Shown: one piece after another, positions 53,960 through 61,037 of the stretch
Position numbering within the stretch: position 1 is the stretch's first letter
Layout of the letters: the number at the start of each line of letters is the position of its first letter
Origin: Luteolibacter luteus
Lineage (GTDB): Bacteria > Verrucomicrobiota > Verrucomicrobiia > Verrucomicrobiales > Akkermansiaceae
DNA: 64,000 nucleotides
Reading direction: 5' to 3'
Assembly: GCF_012913485.1 (NCBI RefSeq)
Contig: NZ_CP051774.1
Coordinates: forward strand, 3,782,001-3,846,000
Notes under the pieces: generated by a model
Seen by the model: the letters and a program-made list of their open reading frames with translations, nothing else
What the model was told of the DNA's origin: nothing
Database searches by the model: none
Made by a program: the position numbers and the translations under genes

Positions 53960-55681
53960 TCAGGTCTTCTCCAGATCCTTCGTCTCGGTGAGCTTCCATT
54001 TGCCATCCTTGCCCATCTTCAGAAGCCAGTCGTGATGCTTCAGCAACGTGGAGCGATGACCGACGCTGACGAAGGTGTAGTGATGCTTCCTTAAGAACTT
54101 GTAGAGCCGCTCTTCATTCGGTTCATCCAGAGCGCTGGTCGATTCGTCGAGGAAAGCGATGGCGGGCTTCTTCAAAATCAGGCGGGCGAACGAAAGCCGT
54201 TGCTGCTCCCCGAGGGAAAGCATGTTCGCCCAGTCTGCCGGGCGATCGAAGTCGCCATCAACGCGGTCGGAGAGTTCGGGGAGATTCACCGTATCAAGGA
54301 TCTCCTGCATGTCCTCGCCTTCCATCTTGCGGGTGGCCTCCGGATAATCCAGTTGCGCGCGCAGGCTGCCGGGGACCATGTAAGGCCGCTGTGGCAGGAA
54401 CATCATGCTGCGATAGGGCGGGCGTCCGATCTTGCCTTCCCCGGAACTCCAGAGGCCGGCGATGGTGCGGAGCAGGGAGCTCTTGCCGGCACCGCTCTCG
54501 CCCATGATCAGCAGGCTCTTGCCAGGAGGGAGCCGGAAGTTCAGGTCCCGCAGGAGTTCGCGGTTCCCATCCGGCGTGGCTACGGTGAGATTTTCCAGCG
54601 AGATCGTGCGTTCATCCTCACTGATCTCGATATGCTCCGCGTTCTCCGCCTCGAGGTCGTCCTCCACGTCTCGTTCGTCGAGGAATTCCCACAGCGAGCC
54701 GAGACGCGTGACACCTGCGGCGAACGCGCTGAGCCGCTCGAACTGGGTGATGAAGAGCGAAATGGCGGCGAGGAAGGTGGCGAAGGCTCCGGTGGCTTGG
54801 GCGATCTTTCCAAACTCCACCTCCCCTCGCAGGAACATCGGGGCCACGATCATGAGCGGCAGGATCAGAGCGAGTGAATTGTAGCCTGTCGTGAAGAAAG
54901 CAAGGTTCCGGTTCCAGCGGATCAGGACCAGCATGTTCCCCACCACGCCGCCGAGGCGAGCACGCAGGTCCCGCAACTCGCGACGCTCTCCACGGTAGAA
55001 GGCGATCGATTCCGAATTGTCCCGCACCCGGACCAGCCCGTAGCGGAGATTCGCTTCGCGCTCGTATTGCAGGTAATTCAGGCCGATGAGGCGCTTCCCG
55101 ATCAAGAATGCAGCCAGGGTGCCAAACACAGCATAGCCCACCAAGACGCCAACCAAGGTGACCGAGATCGACCAGAGGACACCGGCATAGCCGATGATTT
55201 GGATCACCGAATTGATCACGATCAACGAGAAGGATAACGAGGTGATGGTGAAATTCTTCGCGTCTTCCGACATCCGCTGATCGGGGTTGTCGATTTCCTC
55301 GTGTCCCTGCAGCCGGTAGTAGGCGCGGTTGTAGAAATACCGCAGCATCAGGGTGCGGGCGAGGAAGTCCCGCCAGTTTAGCGCGAGGCGCTCCTCCACG
55401 TATCGGTAGTAGGCAGCGAGTGGAACGGTTGCGGCAAAAGTGCCCAGGTAGATCCATAGGCCCCGCTGGAAAGCCGGGGCATTCTGCTTCTCCAAAGCGG
55501 TCATCACATCGCTCATCACGAAGCCCGACCAGATCCCCACCCCCGTGACTGCCACCGAGAGGATGATGAGCGCGCTCAGCTGGGCCCAAGCCTTTCCCCA
55601 AGTGCGACCGAAGAAATAAGGTCGGATCAGCCGCCACAATTGCAGCCAGACGTGGCGGGTGAACTTGGGAGCCTGATCCAT
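53960..55681 (-). CDS. SbmA/BacA- or YddA-like ABC transporter (membrane domain plus ATPase)
   Basis: 573 residues. An N-terminal membrane domain of six helices of the SbmA/BacA type (TWGKAWAQLSALIILSVAVTG; ALNWRDFLARTLMLRYFYNRAYYRLQ; NPDQRMSEDAKNFT; ESIAFYRGERRE) is followed by an ATPase domain. It has Walker A GESGAGKSSL, signature LSLGEQQRLSFARL and Walker B AIAFLDESTSALDE. The signature LSLGE rather than LSGGQ is typical of the YddA branch. It probably acts in lipid, cofactor or peptide transport across the inner membrane. It is monocistronic. Confidence 0.85.
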   Translation of the reverse strand: MDQAPKFTRHVWLQLWRLIRPYFFGRTWGKAWAQLSALIILSVAVTGVGIWSGFVMSDVMTALEKQNAPAFQRGLWIYLGTFAATVPLAAYYRYVEERLALNWRDFLARTLMLRYFYNRAYYRLQGHEEIDNPDQRMSEDAKNFTITSLSFSLIVINSVIQIIGYAGVLWSISVTLVGVLVGYAVFGTLAAFLIGKRLIGLNYLQYEREANLRYGLVRVRDNSESIAFYRGERRELRDLRARLGGVVGNMLVLIRWNRNLAFFTTGYNSLALILPLMIVAPMFLRGEVEFGKIAQATGAFATFLAAISLFITQFERLSAFAAGVTRLGSLWEFLDERDVEDDLEAENAEHIEISEDERTISLENLTVATPDGNRELLRDLNFRLPPGKSLLIMGESGAGKSSLLRTIAGLWSSGEGKIGRPPYRSMMFLPQRPYMVPGSLRAQLDYPEATRKMEGEDMQEILDTVNLPELSDRVDGDFDRPADWANMLSLGEQQRLSFARLILKKPAIAFLDESTSALDEPNEERLYKFLRKHHYTFVSVGHRSTLLKHHDWLLKMGKDGKWKLTETKDLEKT

Positions 55682-55784: not shown

Positions 55785-57533
55785 TCAGGCTCCGGGAAGC
55801 GTGAGCGTGAAACAAGCGCCCCTCTCGCTATTCTCCAAGCGGAGGTCCCCGCCTCCGGCCTTGGCCAGGCGCCGCGACAGGGAAAGCCCCAGCCCTACGC
55901 CGGGACGGCTCTCTGCCGCCGCCGCTGCGGATTTGTGAAAAGCTCGGAAAATCCGCTTCCTGTCGGAGCGTGCCACGCCATTGCCATGATCGCGGACGCA
56001 GACCTTCACCCCTTGGCCATGGGGTTCGACCTCTAGCGCCACCTCATTAGGCTCCGATCCCGCCGCATACTTTGAAGCGTTGTCGATGAGATTGAAGAGC
56101 ACGTGCTCTACCGCCGCCGGATCCGCCTGCACGGTGGCATTCCAAGCCGGATCGTCGATGTCGGCGACCAGCTTGAGATTTGCTTCACTCAGTCGACCTT
56201 GGAAACGTTCGAGCATCGGGGCGACCATCTCTCCCAGCACGTGCCTGCCCGAGCTGGCGCGTGCGCTACCACGTTCGATGCGGGAGAAAGCGAGGACGTT
56301 CTCCACCAGGTGAGAGAGGCGTTCTGCTTCGCGGCGCAGTGTGAGGAAATACTCGCCACGCTTCTCTTCCTTGATCGCCCCGCTCTCCAGCATGCCCGAG
56401 TATAGCTGAAAGGTGGTCAGTGGCGTGCGGAGCTCATGCGTCACTGCCGAGACGAAAGATGCCCGCCGTTCACTTAGGCGCATCAATCCGATCACCAGCA
56501 GCCATGCGGCGAGGATGGCAAGCACCGCCGCCCCCCAACCCGCGGCCAAGGTCAACTGGATCCCGCGGGGCAGCGGCTCGGTCGCTGCCTCACCATTTCC
56601 CGGAGAGATCTTCCACGGGAATGATGCCAGCGCGAGGCCATCTCCCGCGTCCGAAGGCAGGGCGGGAATCAAGCGGGCCGTCGGAAAAAGGTCGGCCACT
56701 TCCCGGAGCAACATCGCCTTGAAGGCTCCTTCATCGAGCCACGAACCTTGGATCGAACGCATCGTGCTGCCATTGCTTTTCGTCCACTGCAGATGCCGTA
56801 GAAGGAAGAGTTCGCTCCCGAACTGCGCAGGACGTGGCAGGCCGCCTCGCAGAAGAGTCCAACCTCCGATACTGCTGCCCGCTGCATTTGGCACGACCGA
56901 GCCATCCTCGGGCAAGCTCGTCCCGTTGCTGAGATTGACGGCTCGGTTCGTCGTCGAGTTGAAGAACTCCTGCCCTTTGTCCACGGCACCGCGCACCGCG
57001 CGAGATCGTCCGGCAAATTCCTTGGTGTTCGCCAGCTTCTGGTACTCGTTGCTCTGGCGGGTGGTTTGTACTTCTTCCTGCTTGAGCGGTTCCTCGGACT
57101 TCGGAGGGGGCACCACCGACCAGCTTGAGGGGATTTCCGGCATGCCCGCGCACAGGGCGGAGAAGGCCTTCTGCTCAGGTGGCAAGCCGAGCGCCTCGCG
57201 GAGTGTTCCCGTCTTGTCGGGGTTGTCTGCGATGAATTCGCCGTCTTCCCGTGCGTCGAAGCGCAATTTCACTTCTGCCTTCGGAGCTTCCTTTAGCACG
57301 AGATCAGGCAGGGGGCGCTGGGCCTCGTCCGCGATCCATGCCGCCGCAGCAGAGTCGACCCGCCATAATGCGAGACGGATACGCTCTTGCTCGTCCGCCT
57401 TCGCTTCCATGCGGGCACGCTCGCGCTGCGTGTCGACCACGCCACGGGTGAGCGCCGCCATCGCGCCGAGGATGAGCACGGCGCAGAGCGCCAGAAGAGC
57501 GTGGGCCAGGCAGTTGGATTTTCCGCGCCTCAT
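55785..57533 (-). CDS. Sensor histidine kinase with large extracytoplasmic domain
   Basis: 582 residues from ATG 57533 (MRRGKSNCLAHAL); this start overlaps the regulator stop by four bases (57530-57533), which the longer frame does not. TM1 spans about 10-30, and a sensor of nearly 300 residues with an unusual Ser/Thr/Asn-rich stretch (SNGTSLPEDGSVVPNAAGSS) precedes TM2 (about 326-350). The H-box VTHELRTPLTT has His366. The ATPase core has NLIDNASKYAAG (N), RDHGNGVA (G1) and GVGLGLSLSRR (G2). It pairs with the preceding regulator. Confidence 0.88.
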   Translation of the reverse strand: MRRGKSNCLAHALLALCAVLILGAMAALTRGVVDTQRERARMEAKADEQERIRLALWRVDSAAAAWIADEAQRPLPDLVLKEAPKAEVKLRFDAREDGEFIADNPDKTGTLREALGLPPEQKAFSALCAGMPEIPSSWSVVPPPKSEEPLKQEEVQTTRQSNEYQKLANTKEFAGRSRAVRGAVDKGQEFFNSTTNRAVNLSNGTSLPEDGSVVPNAAGSSIGGWTLLRGGLPRPAQFGSELFLLRHLQWTKSNGSTMRSIQGSWLDEGAFKAMLLREVADLFPTARLIPALPSDAGDGLALASFPWKISPGNGEAATEPLPRGIQLTLAAGWGAAVLAILAAWLLVIGLMRLSERRASFVSAVTHELRTPLTTFQLYSGMLESGAIKEEKRGEYFLTLRREAERLSHLVENVLAFSRIERGSARASSGRHVLGEMVAPMLERFQGRLSEANLKLVADIDDPAWNATVQADPAAVEHVLFNLIDNASKYAAGSEPNEVALEVEPHGQGVKVCVRDHGNGVARSDRKRIFRAFHKSAAAAAESRPGVGLGLSLSRRLAKAGGGDLRLENSERGACFTLTLPGA

Positions 57534-58222
57534 GTTCCGCTGTGAAATCTCCATCCTCTTCCCCGGACCGTCACGAGCATTTCCTGATCGCGGTCGCGGA
57601 GCTTTGTCCGCAGGTGCATGATATGCATGTCGAGCGTCCGGGTCTCCGTGCGGGAGGGATCGAGTCCCCATACATGCCGGAGAATCTCATCCCGTGATAC
57701 CACGCGTCCGGCGGCGTCCAGCAGGTAGCGGAGCAGGCCGATCTCGCGTTCAGAAAGTAGATTGTCCGAGCCATCGTCGAAGTCGACCTTCCCGGAAATC
57801 AGATCCACCTTCCCGCCGCGCAGTTGCCGCTCCTCGGCGGGGGCGGTCCGTTCGCAGGTGCGCCGCAGGACTGCTTCCACCCGAGCCAACAGCTCGCGAA
57901 CGCTGAAAGGCTTCATCACGTAATCGTCTGCTCCCAAGCTCAAGCCCCGGACACGGTCGTTTTCTTCTCCGCGGGCGGAAAGGATGATCACCGCTTGCCC
58001 CGGACGCTGCTTCTTTAGTTCCGTGAGAATGGAGAAGCCATCGCGTCCCGGGAGCACCAGGTCCAATAGCAGCAGCCGGTAGTTCGCCCGCAGCGCGAGG
58101 TCCAGGCCGTTCATCCCGTCGCCCGCTTCCAAAGTACGGTAACCGCCGTACTCCAACGCGTCCACCACCCCCCGCCGGATGGCGGAGTCGTCTTCGATCA
58201 CGAGGATGGTTTGTTCGGGCAT
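57530..58222 (-). CDS. OmpR-family response regulator
   Basis: 230 residues from ATG 58222 (MPEQTILVIEDDSAIRR). The acidic pocket EDD is at 10-12 and Asp54 lies in LLLLDLVLPGRDGFSIL. The signalling residues include ILSARGEENDRVRGLSLGADDYVMKPFSVRELLARV. The winged-helix output includes TETRTLDMHIMHLRTKLRDRDQEMLVTVRGRGWRF. It precedes its kinase with a four-base overlap. A 46-residue membrane peptide gene ends 34 bases upstream on the same strand. Confidence 0.88.
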   Translation of the reverse strand: MPEQTILVIEDDSAIRRGVVDALEYGGYRTLEAGDGMNGLDLALRANYRLLLLDLVLPGRDGFSILTELKKQRPGQAVIILSARGEENDRVRGLSLGADDYVMKPFSVRELLARVEAVLRRTCERTAPAEERQLRGGKVDLISGKVDFDDGSDNLLSEREIGLLRYLLDAAGRVVSRDEILRHVWGLDPSRTETRTLDMHIMHLRTKLRDRDQEMLVTVRGRGWRFHSGT

Positions 58223-58256: not shown

Positions 58257-58397
58257 TCAGGGGGCAAGCAGGTCCTCAGGCTCCGCTTTTTCCAGACTGG
58301 TCCAGCGGGAGAACCCCTCCACCCATCCGCCGGCAAGAACCCCCGCCGCCATCAGAGCGAGGCCGATGACAACGAGGATGGTGGAGGCAAGCTTCAT
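58257..58397 (-). CDS. 46-residue single-TM peptide upstream of a two-component pair
   Basis: ATG 58397 preceded by an AAGGGA Shine-Dalgarno opens a 47-codon frame. The peptide starts MKLASTILVVIGLALMAAGV, a TM helix or uncleaved signal. LAGGWVEGFSRWTSLEKAEPEDL follows as a short acidic periplasmic tail. It lies 34 bases before the response regulator and 73 bases after the VWA gene, all minus strand, so a single transcript VWA - peptide - regulator - kinase is plausible. It is too short for ordinary gene callers. Small membrane proteins often tune sensor kinases, which is an inference here. Confidence 0.6.
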   Translation of the reverse strand: MKLASTILVVIGLALMAAGVLAGGWVEGFSRWTSLEKAEPEDLLAP

Positions 58398-58470
58398 GAC
58401 GGTGGTCCCTTCTTAGCCCCGGAAACAGGCTGGCGTTTGTAAAACGTTGGTAAAATTCGCGGACGGGGAC

Positions 58471-59634
58471 TCAAGGGGTCTGGAAGGAATAGCCCCGCAC
58501 AGCGGCTTGGTTCCGGGCCGTATCCACGATCGCCTGATCCAGCGTGACGACGCCGGTGGCAGCGGCTTGTCGCTTCATTTCCTCCACCACGAAGGCTTCC
58601 CGCTGGTGGGTCAGTTCCTGGATCTTCTTTTGCAGCCCGGCTCGCTCCGCGGTCATCTTCGCAAGATGGGCTTCGCGTTCCGCGGGGCTCATCGCTTTCA
58701 TCGCGTCCGGAAGTTGGTCCGCCGGCACATCCTCCAGCTTCATCCTGCCATCCTTGCACGCGTCTACCAAGTCCCAGCTTCCATTGTAGTAATTGCTGCT
58801 CGCCTTGGTTGCTGCCCGTCCGACGGCGGCGCCTTGGCGCGCATTCGCAGTGGCATCCCGATCCGCCTCGACCTGCTTGGCCATCCCCTCCCGGCAGAGC
58901 GCCCCATAGCCGAGATAGGTTTTGTTGATCTCGATGCTCAGGGAGGAAATCTCCTTATCCTGCGGGGCGTCCACGTGGGCCACCGCCTTGTCCTGATCGA
59001 TGATGAGATATTTCCCCTCTGCCAAGGCGGCACCATCGTGCCAAGCGCCGGCAATACCGGCTTCGCGACTGCCGCAATGAATCGTGTTCACCACGATGCC
59101 CTTTGACATCGCATCGCGGCAGGCTTGCCGCGCGTCCACCGGGCCTTGGAGGAAGGGCTCGTTGCCGGCGATGAAGATCGCCTTGTAGGTTTTGGGGGAA
59201 GAGTCCCACGAAAGGTCTGCCAGTGCGCGCTGGATAACAGCGCCGCAATACTCGTCGCCGCCGTTGGTGCGGAAGGCGAAGAGCTCCTTGCTCACTTCAT
59301 CGAGATCGCGTGTCAGTGGTTCGACGAGGCGGATCCAGTTGTTGGCGATGTTCAGGCCATTATTGCCGTATTCATAGAGGGCGACCTCCACAAAGGGCGT
59401 TTGACCGTCGCGCTTTGCTTCCGCAAATGTATTCACGACTTTCCAGAGCTGCGTCTTCGCTTGGTCGATGAGCCCGTCCATGCTGTTCGAGGTGTCAAGC
59501 AGCAGCGCGATCTGGACCTTGTTCTGAGGCTTGTCGTTGGGCAGGGGTGAATCCTGGGGTTCCTTGGCCAAGGCGGCAGGCATGAGCAGGGAGGCGACGA
59601 GGAACGAAGAGAGAAAAGGAATGTTCGTTTTCAT
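58471..59634 (-). CDS. Secreted VWA-domain protein
   Basis: 387 residues with signal peptide MKTNIPFLSSFLVASLLMPAALA. The VWA domain starts with IALLLDTSNSMDGL, whose MIDAS motif DTSNS is at 47-51. Later metal-site and strand blocks (VALYEYGNNGL, ELFAFRTNGGDEYCG, AIFIAGNEPF) follow. The C-terminal third is helical and coiled-coil-like (AEREAHLAKMTAERAGLQKKIQELTHQREAF). Such proteins mediate metal-dependent protein contacts in the periplasm or at the surface. It may be the first gene of the transcript running into the small peptide and two-component genes. Confidence 0.75.
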   Translation of the reverse strand: MKTNIPFLSSFLVASLLMPAALAKEPQDSPLPNDKPQNKVQIALLLDTSNSMDGLIDQAKTQLWKVVNTFAEAKRDGQTPFVEVALYEYGNNGLNIANNWIRLVEPLTRDLDEVSKELFAFRTNGGDEYCGAVIQRALADLSWDSSPKTYKAIFIAGNEPFLQGPVDARQACRDAMSKGIVVNTIHCGSREAGIAGAWHDGAALAEGKYLIIDQDKAVAHVDAPQDKEISSLSIEINKTYLGYGALCREGMAKQVEADRDATANARQGAAVGRAATKASSNYYNGSWDLVDACKDGRMKLEDVPADQLPDAMKAMSPAEREAHLAKMTAERAGLQKKIQELTHQREAFVVEEMKRQAAATGVVTLDQAIVDTARNQAAVRGYSFQTP

Positions 59635-59741
59635 GACATCCCTTCAGTAGCCCGGCGCCGCAGCCCTGTCCGTCAAGGCCACGTAAATTGAGCGGGAGAT
59701 TTCCCTTTGCGCCGGGGCGGGGGATGGCGCACAGCTAGCGC

Positions 59742-61037
59742 GTGTCCTCCGTCCTCCGCCGCACCGGTGCCTTCGCCTATCGTAACCCGCGGCTCTATGT
59801 GTATTTCACGGTGCTCTACAATGCCCGTGCCTACTATCCGGTGCTGGCGATTTTCTTTACAGACCTCGGTCTGACCTTGGATCGCTTCGTGTTCCTGAAC
59901 CTGATGTGGGCGCTGGCGATCTTTCTCTTGGAAGTGCCATCGGGAGCGCTGGCGGATACGCTCGGCCGGAAGAAGCTGCTCGTCTTCTCCTCCCTGATCA
60001 TGGTGGTGGAGATGGCGATCCTCTTGCTCGCCCCGAAGGATGGCGGGAATCTTCTCTTCGCGCTTTGCATCCTCAACCGCTTGCTCTCGGGCACTTCCGA
60101 GGCGGCGGCGAGTGGCGCGGACGAATCGATCGCCTACGATGCCCTGCCGGAAGAAGGACGCGCCCAAGCATGGGATGATGTCCTCTCTGCGGCGATGAAA
60201 TGGCGGTCCGCGGGCTTCTTCATCACGATGGCTCTCGGCGGTCTGCTCTACGACTTCACATGGGCCCAGAAGCTCGGAGTGAGCGTTCCCGTGGAAATAT
60301 CACACCGCTTGCCGATCGCGGTGGTCCTCGTTCAGGCGATTGCCTGTGTGGCGATCACCCTGCGCCTTGAAGAAACACCCCATGCCTCCGGAGAAGCGAA
60401 GGCGCGCTGTGCCTCCGCTTTCCGTCTCACTCTGCGCACCGCGAAGAAGGCCTTCACGACCCGCAGCATTGCCATGGTGATTGTAGGCGGGCTGCTCATC
60501 GATTCCGTAGCCCGGAACTTCGCCACCATGACCAGCGAATACTACCGGCTCATCCATTATCCGGAGTGGTCCTTCGGCTTGATCGGTGCCGTGGGAGGCT
60601 TCGTAGGGTTCTTCGTCCCTGCGATCGCCCGCTGGCTGAACGCGCGGTTCTCCGCGCTGGGTGTTCTCGGGATCTCCGCAGTGCTGGCGATTGCCTGCCT
60701 GTCGCTCATCGCTCCCGCTTGGCCTTGGGTGGGCCTGCTGCCGGTGATGCTGCTCATGACCCTGCTCGGTCTGGTCGGCTTCACGGTGGGCCGGCACCTG
60801 CATGCTTCGGCGGAATCTTCCGAGCGCGCCACCATGCTGAGCGTCCGTGGCCTTGCCTTCAATTTGGGCTACGGCACCTTTTCGCTCGGCTTTTCCCTGC
60901 TGCTCGCCCGCATGCGCGAGACGGTGGGAGACGACGCCTTCCGCTCTGCGTTGCTCTGGCAACTGCCGGTCGTAGCGGCGCTGATCGCCGGTTTCTTTCT
61001 CTGGGCCTGGTCAGGAAAGGGGAGGCGATCCGTCTGA
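59742..61037 (+). CDS. MFS transporter
   Basis: 431 residues from GTG 59742. Twelve TM helices are suggested by the hydrophobicity pattern. Family hallmarks are LGRKKLLVFSSLIMVVEMAILL with the loop 2-3 motif ADTLGRKK after GALADTLGR, and a central cytoplasmic loop near 200-215. It resembles drug or unknown-metabolite exporters. It is monocistronic, divergent from the VWA gene. The substrate is unknown. Confidence 0.82.
   Translation: MSSVLRRTGAFAYRNPRLYVYFTVLYNARAYYPVLAIFFTDLGLTLDRFVFLNLMWALAIFLLEVPSGALADTLGRKKLLVFSSLIMVVEMAILLLAPKDGGNLLFALCILNRLLSGTSEAAASGADESIAYDALPEEGRAQAWDDVLSAAMKWRSAGFFITMALGGLLYDFTWAQKLGVSVPVEISHRLPIAVVLVQAIACVAITLRLEETPHASGEAKARCASAFRLTLRTAKKAFTTRSIAMVIVGGLLIDSVARNFATMTSEYYRLIHYPEWSFGLIGAVGGFVGFFVPAIARWLNARFSALGVLGISAVLAIACLSLIAPAWPWVGLLPVMLLMTLLGLVGFTVGRHLHASAESSERATMLSVRGLAFNLGYGTFSLGFSLLLARMRETVGDDAFRSALLWQLPVVAALIAGFFLWAWSGKGRRSV

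Follow-up and report, generated by a model that had tools for sequence, protein, structure and literature searches.

A predicted promoter element links a secreted VWA protein to an OmpR/PhoB-family two-component pair in Luteolibacter luteus and related Verrucomicrobiales

Gene content of the locus

The window analysed in this work is a 64,000-nucleotide stretch of the Luteolibacter luteus genome, which comprises 6.4 Mb on a single contig. The features considered below are the following, with coordinates given within the window.

53960..55681, minus strand: ABC transporter gene (ABC_membrane_2, SbmA/BacA-like), typed by Pfam and blastp neighbourhood
55785..57533, minus strand: histidine kinase (HK) gene, Pfam HisKA and HATPase_c
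57530..58222, minus strand: response regulator (RR) gene of the OmpR/PhoB family, Pfam Response_reg and Trans_reg_C
58257..58397, minus strand: 46-aa ORF, a signal-peptide-like N-terminus followed by 23 aa without known relatives
58435..58454, minus strand: second predicted box, TTTACCAACGTTTTACAAAC, between the VWA gene and the 46-aa ORF, from pattern search and profile
58471..59634, minus strand: VWA gene, 387 aa, PF00092
59668..59687, minus strand: predicted VWA promoter box, TTTACGTGGCCTTGACGGAC, from pattern search and a profile of 73 loci
59742-61037, plus strand: MFS transporter gene, divergent from the VWA gene

An earlier note on this DNA had described four same-strand genes with gaps of 73 and 34 bases and a 4-base overlap. 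This description is exact: the VWA gene, the 46-aa ORF, the RR gene and the HK gene are all encoded on the minus strand, with spacings of 73 nt (VWA to 46-aa ORF) and 34 nt (46-aa ORF to RR) and a 4-nt RR/HK overlap. The latter value refers to an HK start at 57533, which we preferred over a longer start at 57671; an alternative start at 57554 extends the overlap to 25 nt. The ABC transporter gene lies 103 nt past the HK gene on the same strand and is kept after it in at least five congeners, with 80-85% identity, and its co-transcription with HK is possible. In addition, a homologous MFS gene was observed after a second HK-RR pair close to the VWA locus in three other loci (L039-L041).

The VWA protein belongs to the VWA domain proteins, as indicated by a PF00092 match over the cut-off (24.4 versus 23.8 bits) and by a MIDAS motif of the DxSxS type (DTSNSM), whose DTS.SM.GL context is invariant among 19 homologues. 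A Sec-type signal was recognised by eye. The predicted model (pLDDT 85.0) consists of a VWA domain and a helical C-terminal part with a long helix (317-360), and its Foldseek matches comprise VWA A3, BatB (3ibs) and ITIH1 folds; searches with the sequence returned nothing from the PDB at 0.01 and no NCBIfam match. The closest named relatives are found in Haloferula sp. BvORR071 and Luteolibacter marinus. While the VWA fold is shared with bacterial VWA proteins of the BatA/BatB and YfbK types, as the BatB match illustrates, the window protein differs from them in the absence of a MoxR/DUF58 Bat operon, in its C-terminal helical part, in its conserved two-component context and in having no NCBIfam entry.

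The two-component pair shows the domain composition of OmpR/PhoB-family systems, namely a receiver and a winged-helix DNA-binding domain in the RR and HisKA plus HATPase_c in the HK. According to the predicted HK model (pLDDT 85.5), a long N-terminal transmembrane helix (3-71) is followed by an extracytoplasmic alpha/beta domain reaching to about residue 320, and then by a transmembrane segment, HisKA and HATPase_c, which form a standard kinase core. The top Foldseek match of this model is WalK, and the PDB matches are taken up by the kinase core, with the outer domain hardly covered.

Conservation of the VWA-RR-HK order and the promoter element

VWA relatives were detected in 53 of 117 family genomes and close HK relatives in 67 of 117. 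Neighbourhoods typed by blastp showed the VWA-RR-HK order in most family genomes carrying the VWA gene, including Akkermansia-like genomes of 3 Mb. A scan of named genomes provided 80 more loci, with the same order across Verrucomicrobiales and at two Planctomycetota loci (L215, L226). Altogether 94 distinct VWA loci were collected, 80 of them with enough downstream sequence to test for an RR gene. The RR gene lay downstream of the VWA gene at 56 of these 80 loci, a proportion that applies to loci picked by VWA similarity and is no census of all VWA genes; 22 of the 56 have, upstream, the gene for a VIT-VWA protein of about 750 aa that often precedes the VWA gene. Six Akkermansia-like loci (L071-L075, L078) keep the VWA-RR-HK order with a longer VWA gene. 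Thus, when the same four-gene order was searched for, as the earlier note had suggested, the VWA-RR-HK part proved widespread and the small ORF did not belong to it. Many congeners have the RR-HK pair and no VWA gene, so the VWA protein is dispensable for the pair.

The VWA gene and the 46-aa ORF are each preceded by a predicted promoter element, TTTAC-N6-TT(T/G)AC, a direct repeat with an 11-bp phase that abuts a weak -35 and is followed by a -10. Specifically, the box before the VWA gene has the form TTTAC-N6-TTGAC, with a -35-like CGGACA (59667-59672), a -10-like TACTGA (59644-59649) and the ATG 53 nt from the box start, and nowhere else in the 6.4-Mb genome does the 20-mer match without a mismatch. 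It sits in the short interval (59668-59742) between the VWA gene and the divergent MFS gene. The second box has the form TTTAC-N6-TTTAC, with a -35-like CAAACG, a -10-like TAAGAA (58410-58415) and the ATG 57 nt from its start. Three sites with at most one mismatch occur in the window, against 0.42 expected. Within the source genome, the 20-mer was found within one mismatch at three sites, which are the two window boxes and one before the gene of a 519-aa protein at 3.258 Mb.

Upstream of the first gene, the element was present on the coding strand at 73 of 111 eligible loci and on the opposite strand at 1 of 111. When these 73 sites were aligned, the repeats fell at positions 0 and 11 and an RGAC at 16-19, within a weak -35 at 15-20; a spacer of 17 nt separates the latter from a -10 (TA...T) at 38-43, and the start codon follows near 53-57. 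Such a geometry suggests that an activator binds directly next to the -35. Regulators of the OmpR/PhoB family bind tandem direct repeats with a phase of about 11 bp close to promoters, and the conserved repeat described here is a putative site of this type.

The regulon search relied on sequence patterns only. Across the 18 genomes of the genus the 20-mer gave 26 matches (reversed control, 4), which precede VWA, rhodanese-RR-HK, RR-HK and a few secreted-protein genes. In all six genomes in which VWA and the two-component genes lie apart (G009, G012, G014, G035, G052, G073), the box is found at both loci; here TTTACA-N5-TTTACA gave 21 matches (reversed control, 5), 12 of which correspond to a VWA/VIT-VWA operon or an RR gene. 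Family-wide, 55 of 60 matches to TTTACN6TTTACRSAC fell in the 67 genomes with the HK and 5 in the 50 genomes without it, while the reversed control gave 7 and 4 matches, respectively (tallies counted by hand from tables). The element follows the two-component system and the VWA gene rather than synteny. In the Akkermansia-like loci, however, no clear box was seen, only a candidate with 2-3 mismatches about 20-40 nt before the RR gene. Since gene order is conserved and the box is common to both loci even where they are unlinked, the proposal that these genes form one system holds for the VWA gene and the RR-HK pair; it is not supported for the 46-aa peptide. In agreement with the earlier note, whose author knew of no described system of such composition, the open literature searched contained no description of a VWA plus two-component unit, which is apparently a conserved and so far undescribed regulatory unit in Verrucomicrobiales.

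The proposed single operon was examined for terminators and separate promoters, either of which the earlier note had named as refuting it. No terminator-like site was found on the minus strand between the VWA and RR genes, but a second promoter-like element (58410-58454) lies ahead of the peptide. As the peptide side has its own predicted box, the single-operon picture is weakened, and we dropped it as the sole reading. The two boxes imply co-regulation and not necessarily one transcript, and the most fitting reading of the window genes is a pair of neighbouring transcription units that share one regulator.

The VWA gene is thus a predicted target of the regulator. Further candidate targets in the genus are the secreted rhodanese-like gene before the RR gene and a secreted protein of about 500 aa in five genomes. 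The latter carries 'LFKNGVAVVRASFE' or a close form in L127, L128, L131, L147 and L148; the one protein tested had no Pfam match, and by eye the group resembles mucoidy-inhibitor-like proteins. Giant secreted proteins of about 2300 aa are encoded behind the box in G009 and G035, and in the source genome an exact element lies 34 nt before a similar-looking 2257-aa ORF at 4.9587 Mb. This protein (region L253:5172-11995) is secreted, has no Pfam match and is encoded directly downstream of a 1169-aa YfbK-type VWA/TPR protein, a pair order similar to that in G009 and G035. Box-bearing TPR proteins of about 2800 aa occur in G012 and G052, with a similar start in G035, and the one tested (L254:2553-11003, 2816 aa) contains weak bacterial alpha-2-macroglobulin domains (MG2, A2M). 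The box is tied to the window RR only through co-occurrence, and another OmpR-family RR of the genome could bind it instead.

Besides being a target, the VWA protein might act as an extracytoplasmic co-sensor on the outer domain of the HK, in a three-component sensing mechanism. VWA domains with a MIDAS bind protein ligands, and feedback of output genes on the cognate kinase is known from other two-component systems (CpxP type); both points, and the tight and widespread linkage to RR-HK, speak for the idea. We nonetheless consider it rather unlikely, because the VWA gene also occurs unlinked and is missing from most congeners that keep RR-HK, and the regulator-target relation by itself explains the linkage.

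Origin of the 46-aa ORF

The 46-aa ORF had been proposed to encode a membrane peptide modulating the kinase. Its synonymous codons are host-like (0.085 bit/codon, compared with 0.126 +/- 0.09 for in-frame windows and -0.15 to -0.17 off-frame), so that the frame codes now or did so until recently, and a ribosome-site-like AAGGGA precedes its ATG. No Pfam match was obtained, rhodanese PF00581 included. A six-frame search of the 17 other genomes of the genus, carried out as a check of conservation, detected no relatives (best E = 0.06), nor did the other VWA-RR gaps contain a counterpart. Conservation with the adjacent two-component system, as expected of a small connector or kinase-modulating membrane peptide, was therefore not observed.

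In 10 of 16 resolved genomes of the genus, the position directly upstream of the RR gene is occupied by a secreted rhodanese-like gene with an invariant IYCNNNF loop, and in the window the 46-aa ORF takes this slot, correctly spaced from the box. Haloferula sp. BvORR071 (L039:7259-8841) has two tandem rhodanese-like genes between VWA and RR. The first 23 residues of the ORF resemble the signal peptide of the L041 rhodanese (MKTTCLVLAAAGLALMAAGVSLG / MKLASTILVVIGLALMAAGVLAG) with a BLOSUM score of 57, a value that none of 1000 segment shuffles and none of 74 unrelated signal peptides attained. Signal peptides converge easily, and the last 23 aa have no similarity to the rhodanese in protein or DNA, so that descent from the rhodanese is supported solely through the leader. 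In the sister genome L100, the slot contains only a rhodanese leader and the first codons before the RR gene (score 69 over 64 aligned columns, against at most 28 in shuffles); the slot is thus known to decay to a leader and a few codons. Taken together, the 46-aa ORF is probably either a relic of a lost secreted rhodanese-like gene or a neo-peptide reusing its leader, and we favour the relic.

It is improbable that the ORF encodes a functional small membrane or secreted kinase modulator recently evolved in this lineage. The host-like codons, the AAGGGA and its leading position after the RR box, directly ahead of RR-HK, would suit such a peptide, but it lacks relatives, its N-terminus is accounted for by the rhodanese signal peptide and the sister genome shows the slot decaying.

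Regulatory model and significance

The identity of the pair was assessed against known systems. The best NCBIfam matches are PhoB for the RR and WalK for the HK, both far under the curated cut-offs: 174.7 versus 296.2 bits for PhoB, 141 versus 340 bits for YycF (RR) and 138 versus 725 bits for WalK (HK). Twelve other RRs of the source genome score as full-length PhoB-like, six others are more PhoB-like than the window RR, and PhoU, at 0.747 Mb, has no genomic link to the RR at 3.84 Mb; a genome pattern search found no exact box at the PhoU location. The sequence of the predicted box agrees on the reverse strand with the WalR consensus, a direct repeat with an 11-bp phase (PMC4168254), TTTACA-N5-TTTACA being the reverse complement of one form of the site TGTWAH-N5-TGTWAH. 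The pair resembles WalK-WalR (YycG-YycF) in its OmpR-family RR, its HisKA kinase with an extracytoplasmic domain and its envelope-related candidate targets, but no WalH/WalI-type partner genes were seen here, and these candidates comprise VWA, VIT-VWA and rhodanese-like proteins and giant secreted ones. In PhoB-type activation the site abuts or overlaps the -35, and the family of the RR and the position of the predicted site are likenesses to PhoB-PhoR; the window pair differs from it in being unlinked to pst/phoU. An extra gene serving as target or cofactor beside a kinase pair recalls Cpx with CpxP and GraXSR, but here the accessory gene encodes a VWA protein, whose feedback on the kinase is only a proposal.

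We therefore dropped the PhoB-PhoR and WalK-WalR identities, since the model scores are too low, other RRs fit PhoB better and PhoU is unlinked. That the system is the phosphate or cell-wall regulator of the phylum is highly improbable despite the best matches to PhoB and WalK, also because box matches precede secreted-protein genes and not phosphate genes. Chance synteny of a housekeeping two-component system with an unrelated VWA gene is hardly credible: RR-HK without VWA in many genomes would fit, but the order is kept across genera and into Planctomycetota, and the same box stands ahead of VWA and RR alike even at unlinked loci.

The reading that we prefer, with a probability of roughly two in three, is a conserved envelope-signalling unit in which the RR would control a regulon of VWA, rhodanese-like and own-operon genes, the 46-aa ORF being a relic or a young peptide. 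The HK would respond through its large extracytoplasmic domain to an extracytoplasmic signal and, as the adjacency and families of the genes suggest, phosphorylate the RR, which would bind TTTAC-N6-TT(T/G)AC next to a weak -35 (RGAC), with the -10 lying 17-18 nt on. Its targets would be secreted proteins of the VWA, VIT-VWA and rhodanese-like types and some of very large size, and it would also act on its own operon, where the site geometry makes activation with positive feedback the most likely form of autoregulation. One copy of the element would drive the VWA gene and the other [46-aa ORF]-RR-HK, so that the two would be co-regulated whether or not transcription reads through. The 46-aa ORF would have kept the start signals and signal peptide of a rhodanese-like gene whose body was lost, or would be a young lineage-specific peptide reusing them. 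A broader scheme, which we regard as rather unlikely, would be a Verrucomicrobiales-wide envelope surveillance system: the kinase would be linked to the condition of secreted VWA/VIT-VWA proteins, with VWA feeding back on it, and a small regulon including alpha-2-macroglobulin-like giant proteins and further very large secreted proteins would serve a surface-defence or adhesion programme.

In conclusion, an unexplained gene neighbourhood becomes a predicted regulon, marked by a defined promoter element and spanning Luteolibacter, Haloferula, Roseibacillus and Prosthecobacter in an ecologically important phylum, with the gene order also found in Akkermansia-like genomes. To our knowledge, almost no two-component system of this phylum has a known target, and few regulators are known for bacterial VWA/VIT-VWA and alpha-2-macroglobulin-like secreted proteins; these proteins now gain a directly testable candidate regulator. 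In addition, good coding signals in a 'micropeptide' frame are compatible with its being the front remnant of a lost secreted gene. The 46-aa peptide is probably such debris, and the VWA-two-component regulon is the conserved, testable part of the locus.
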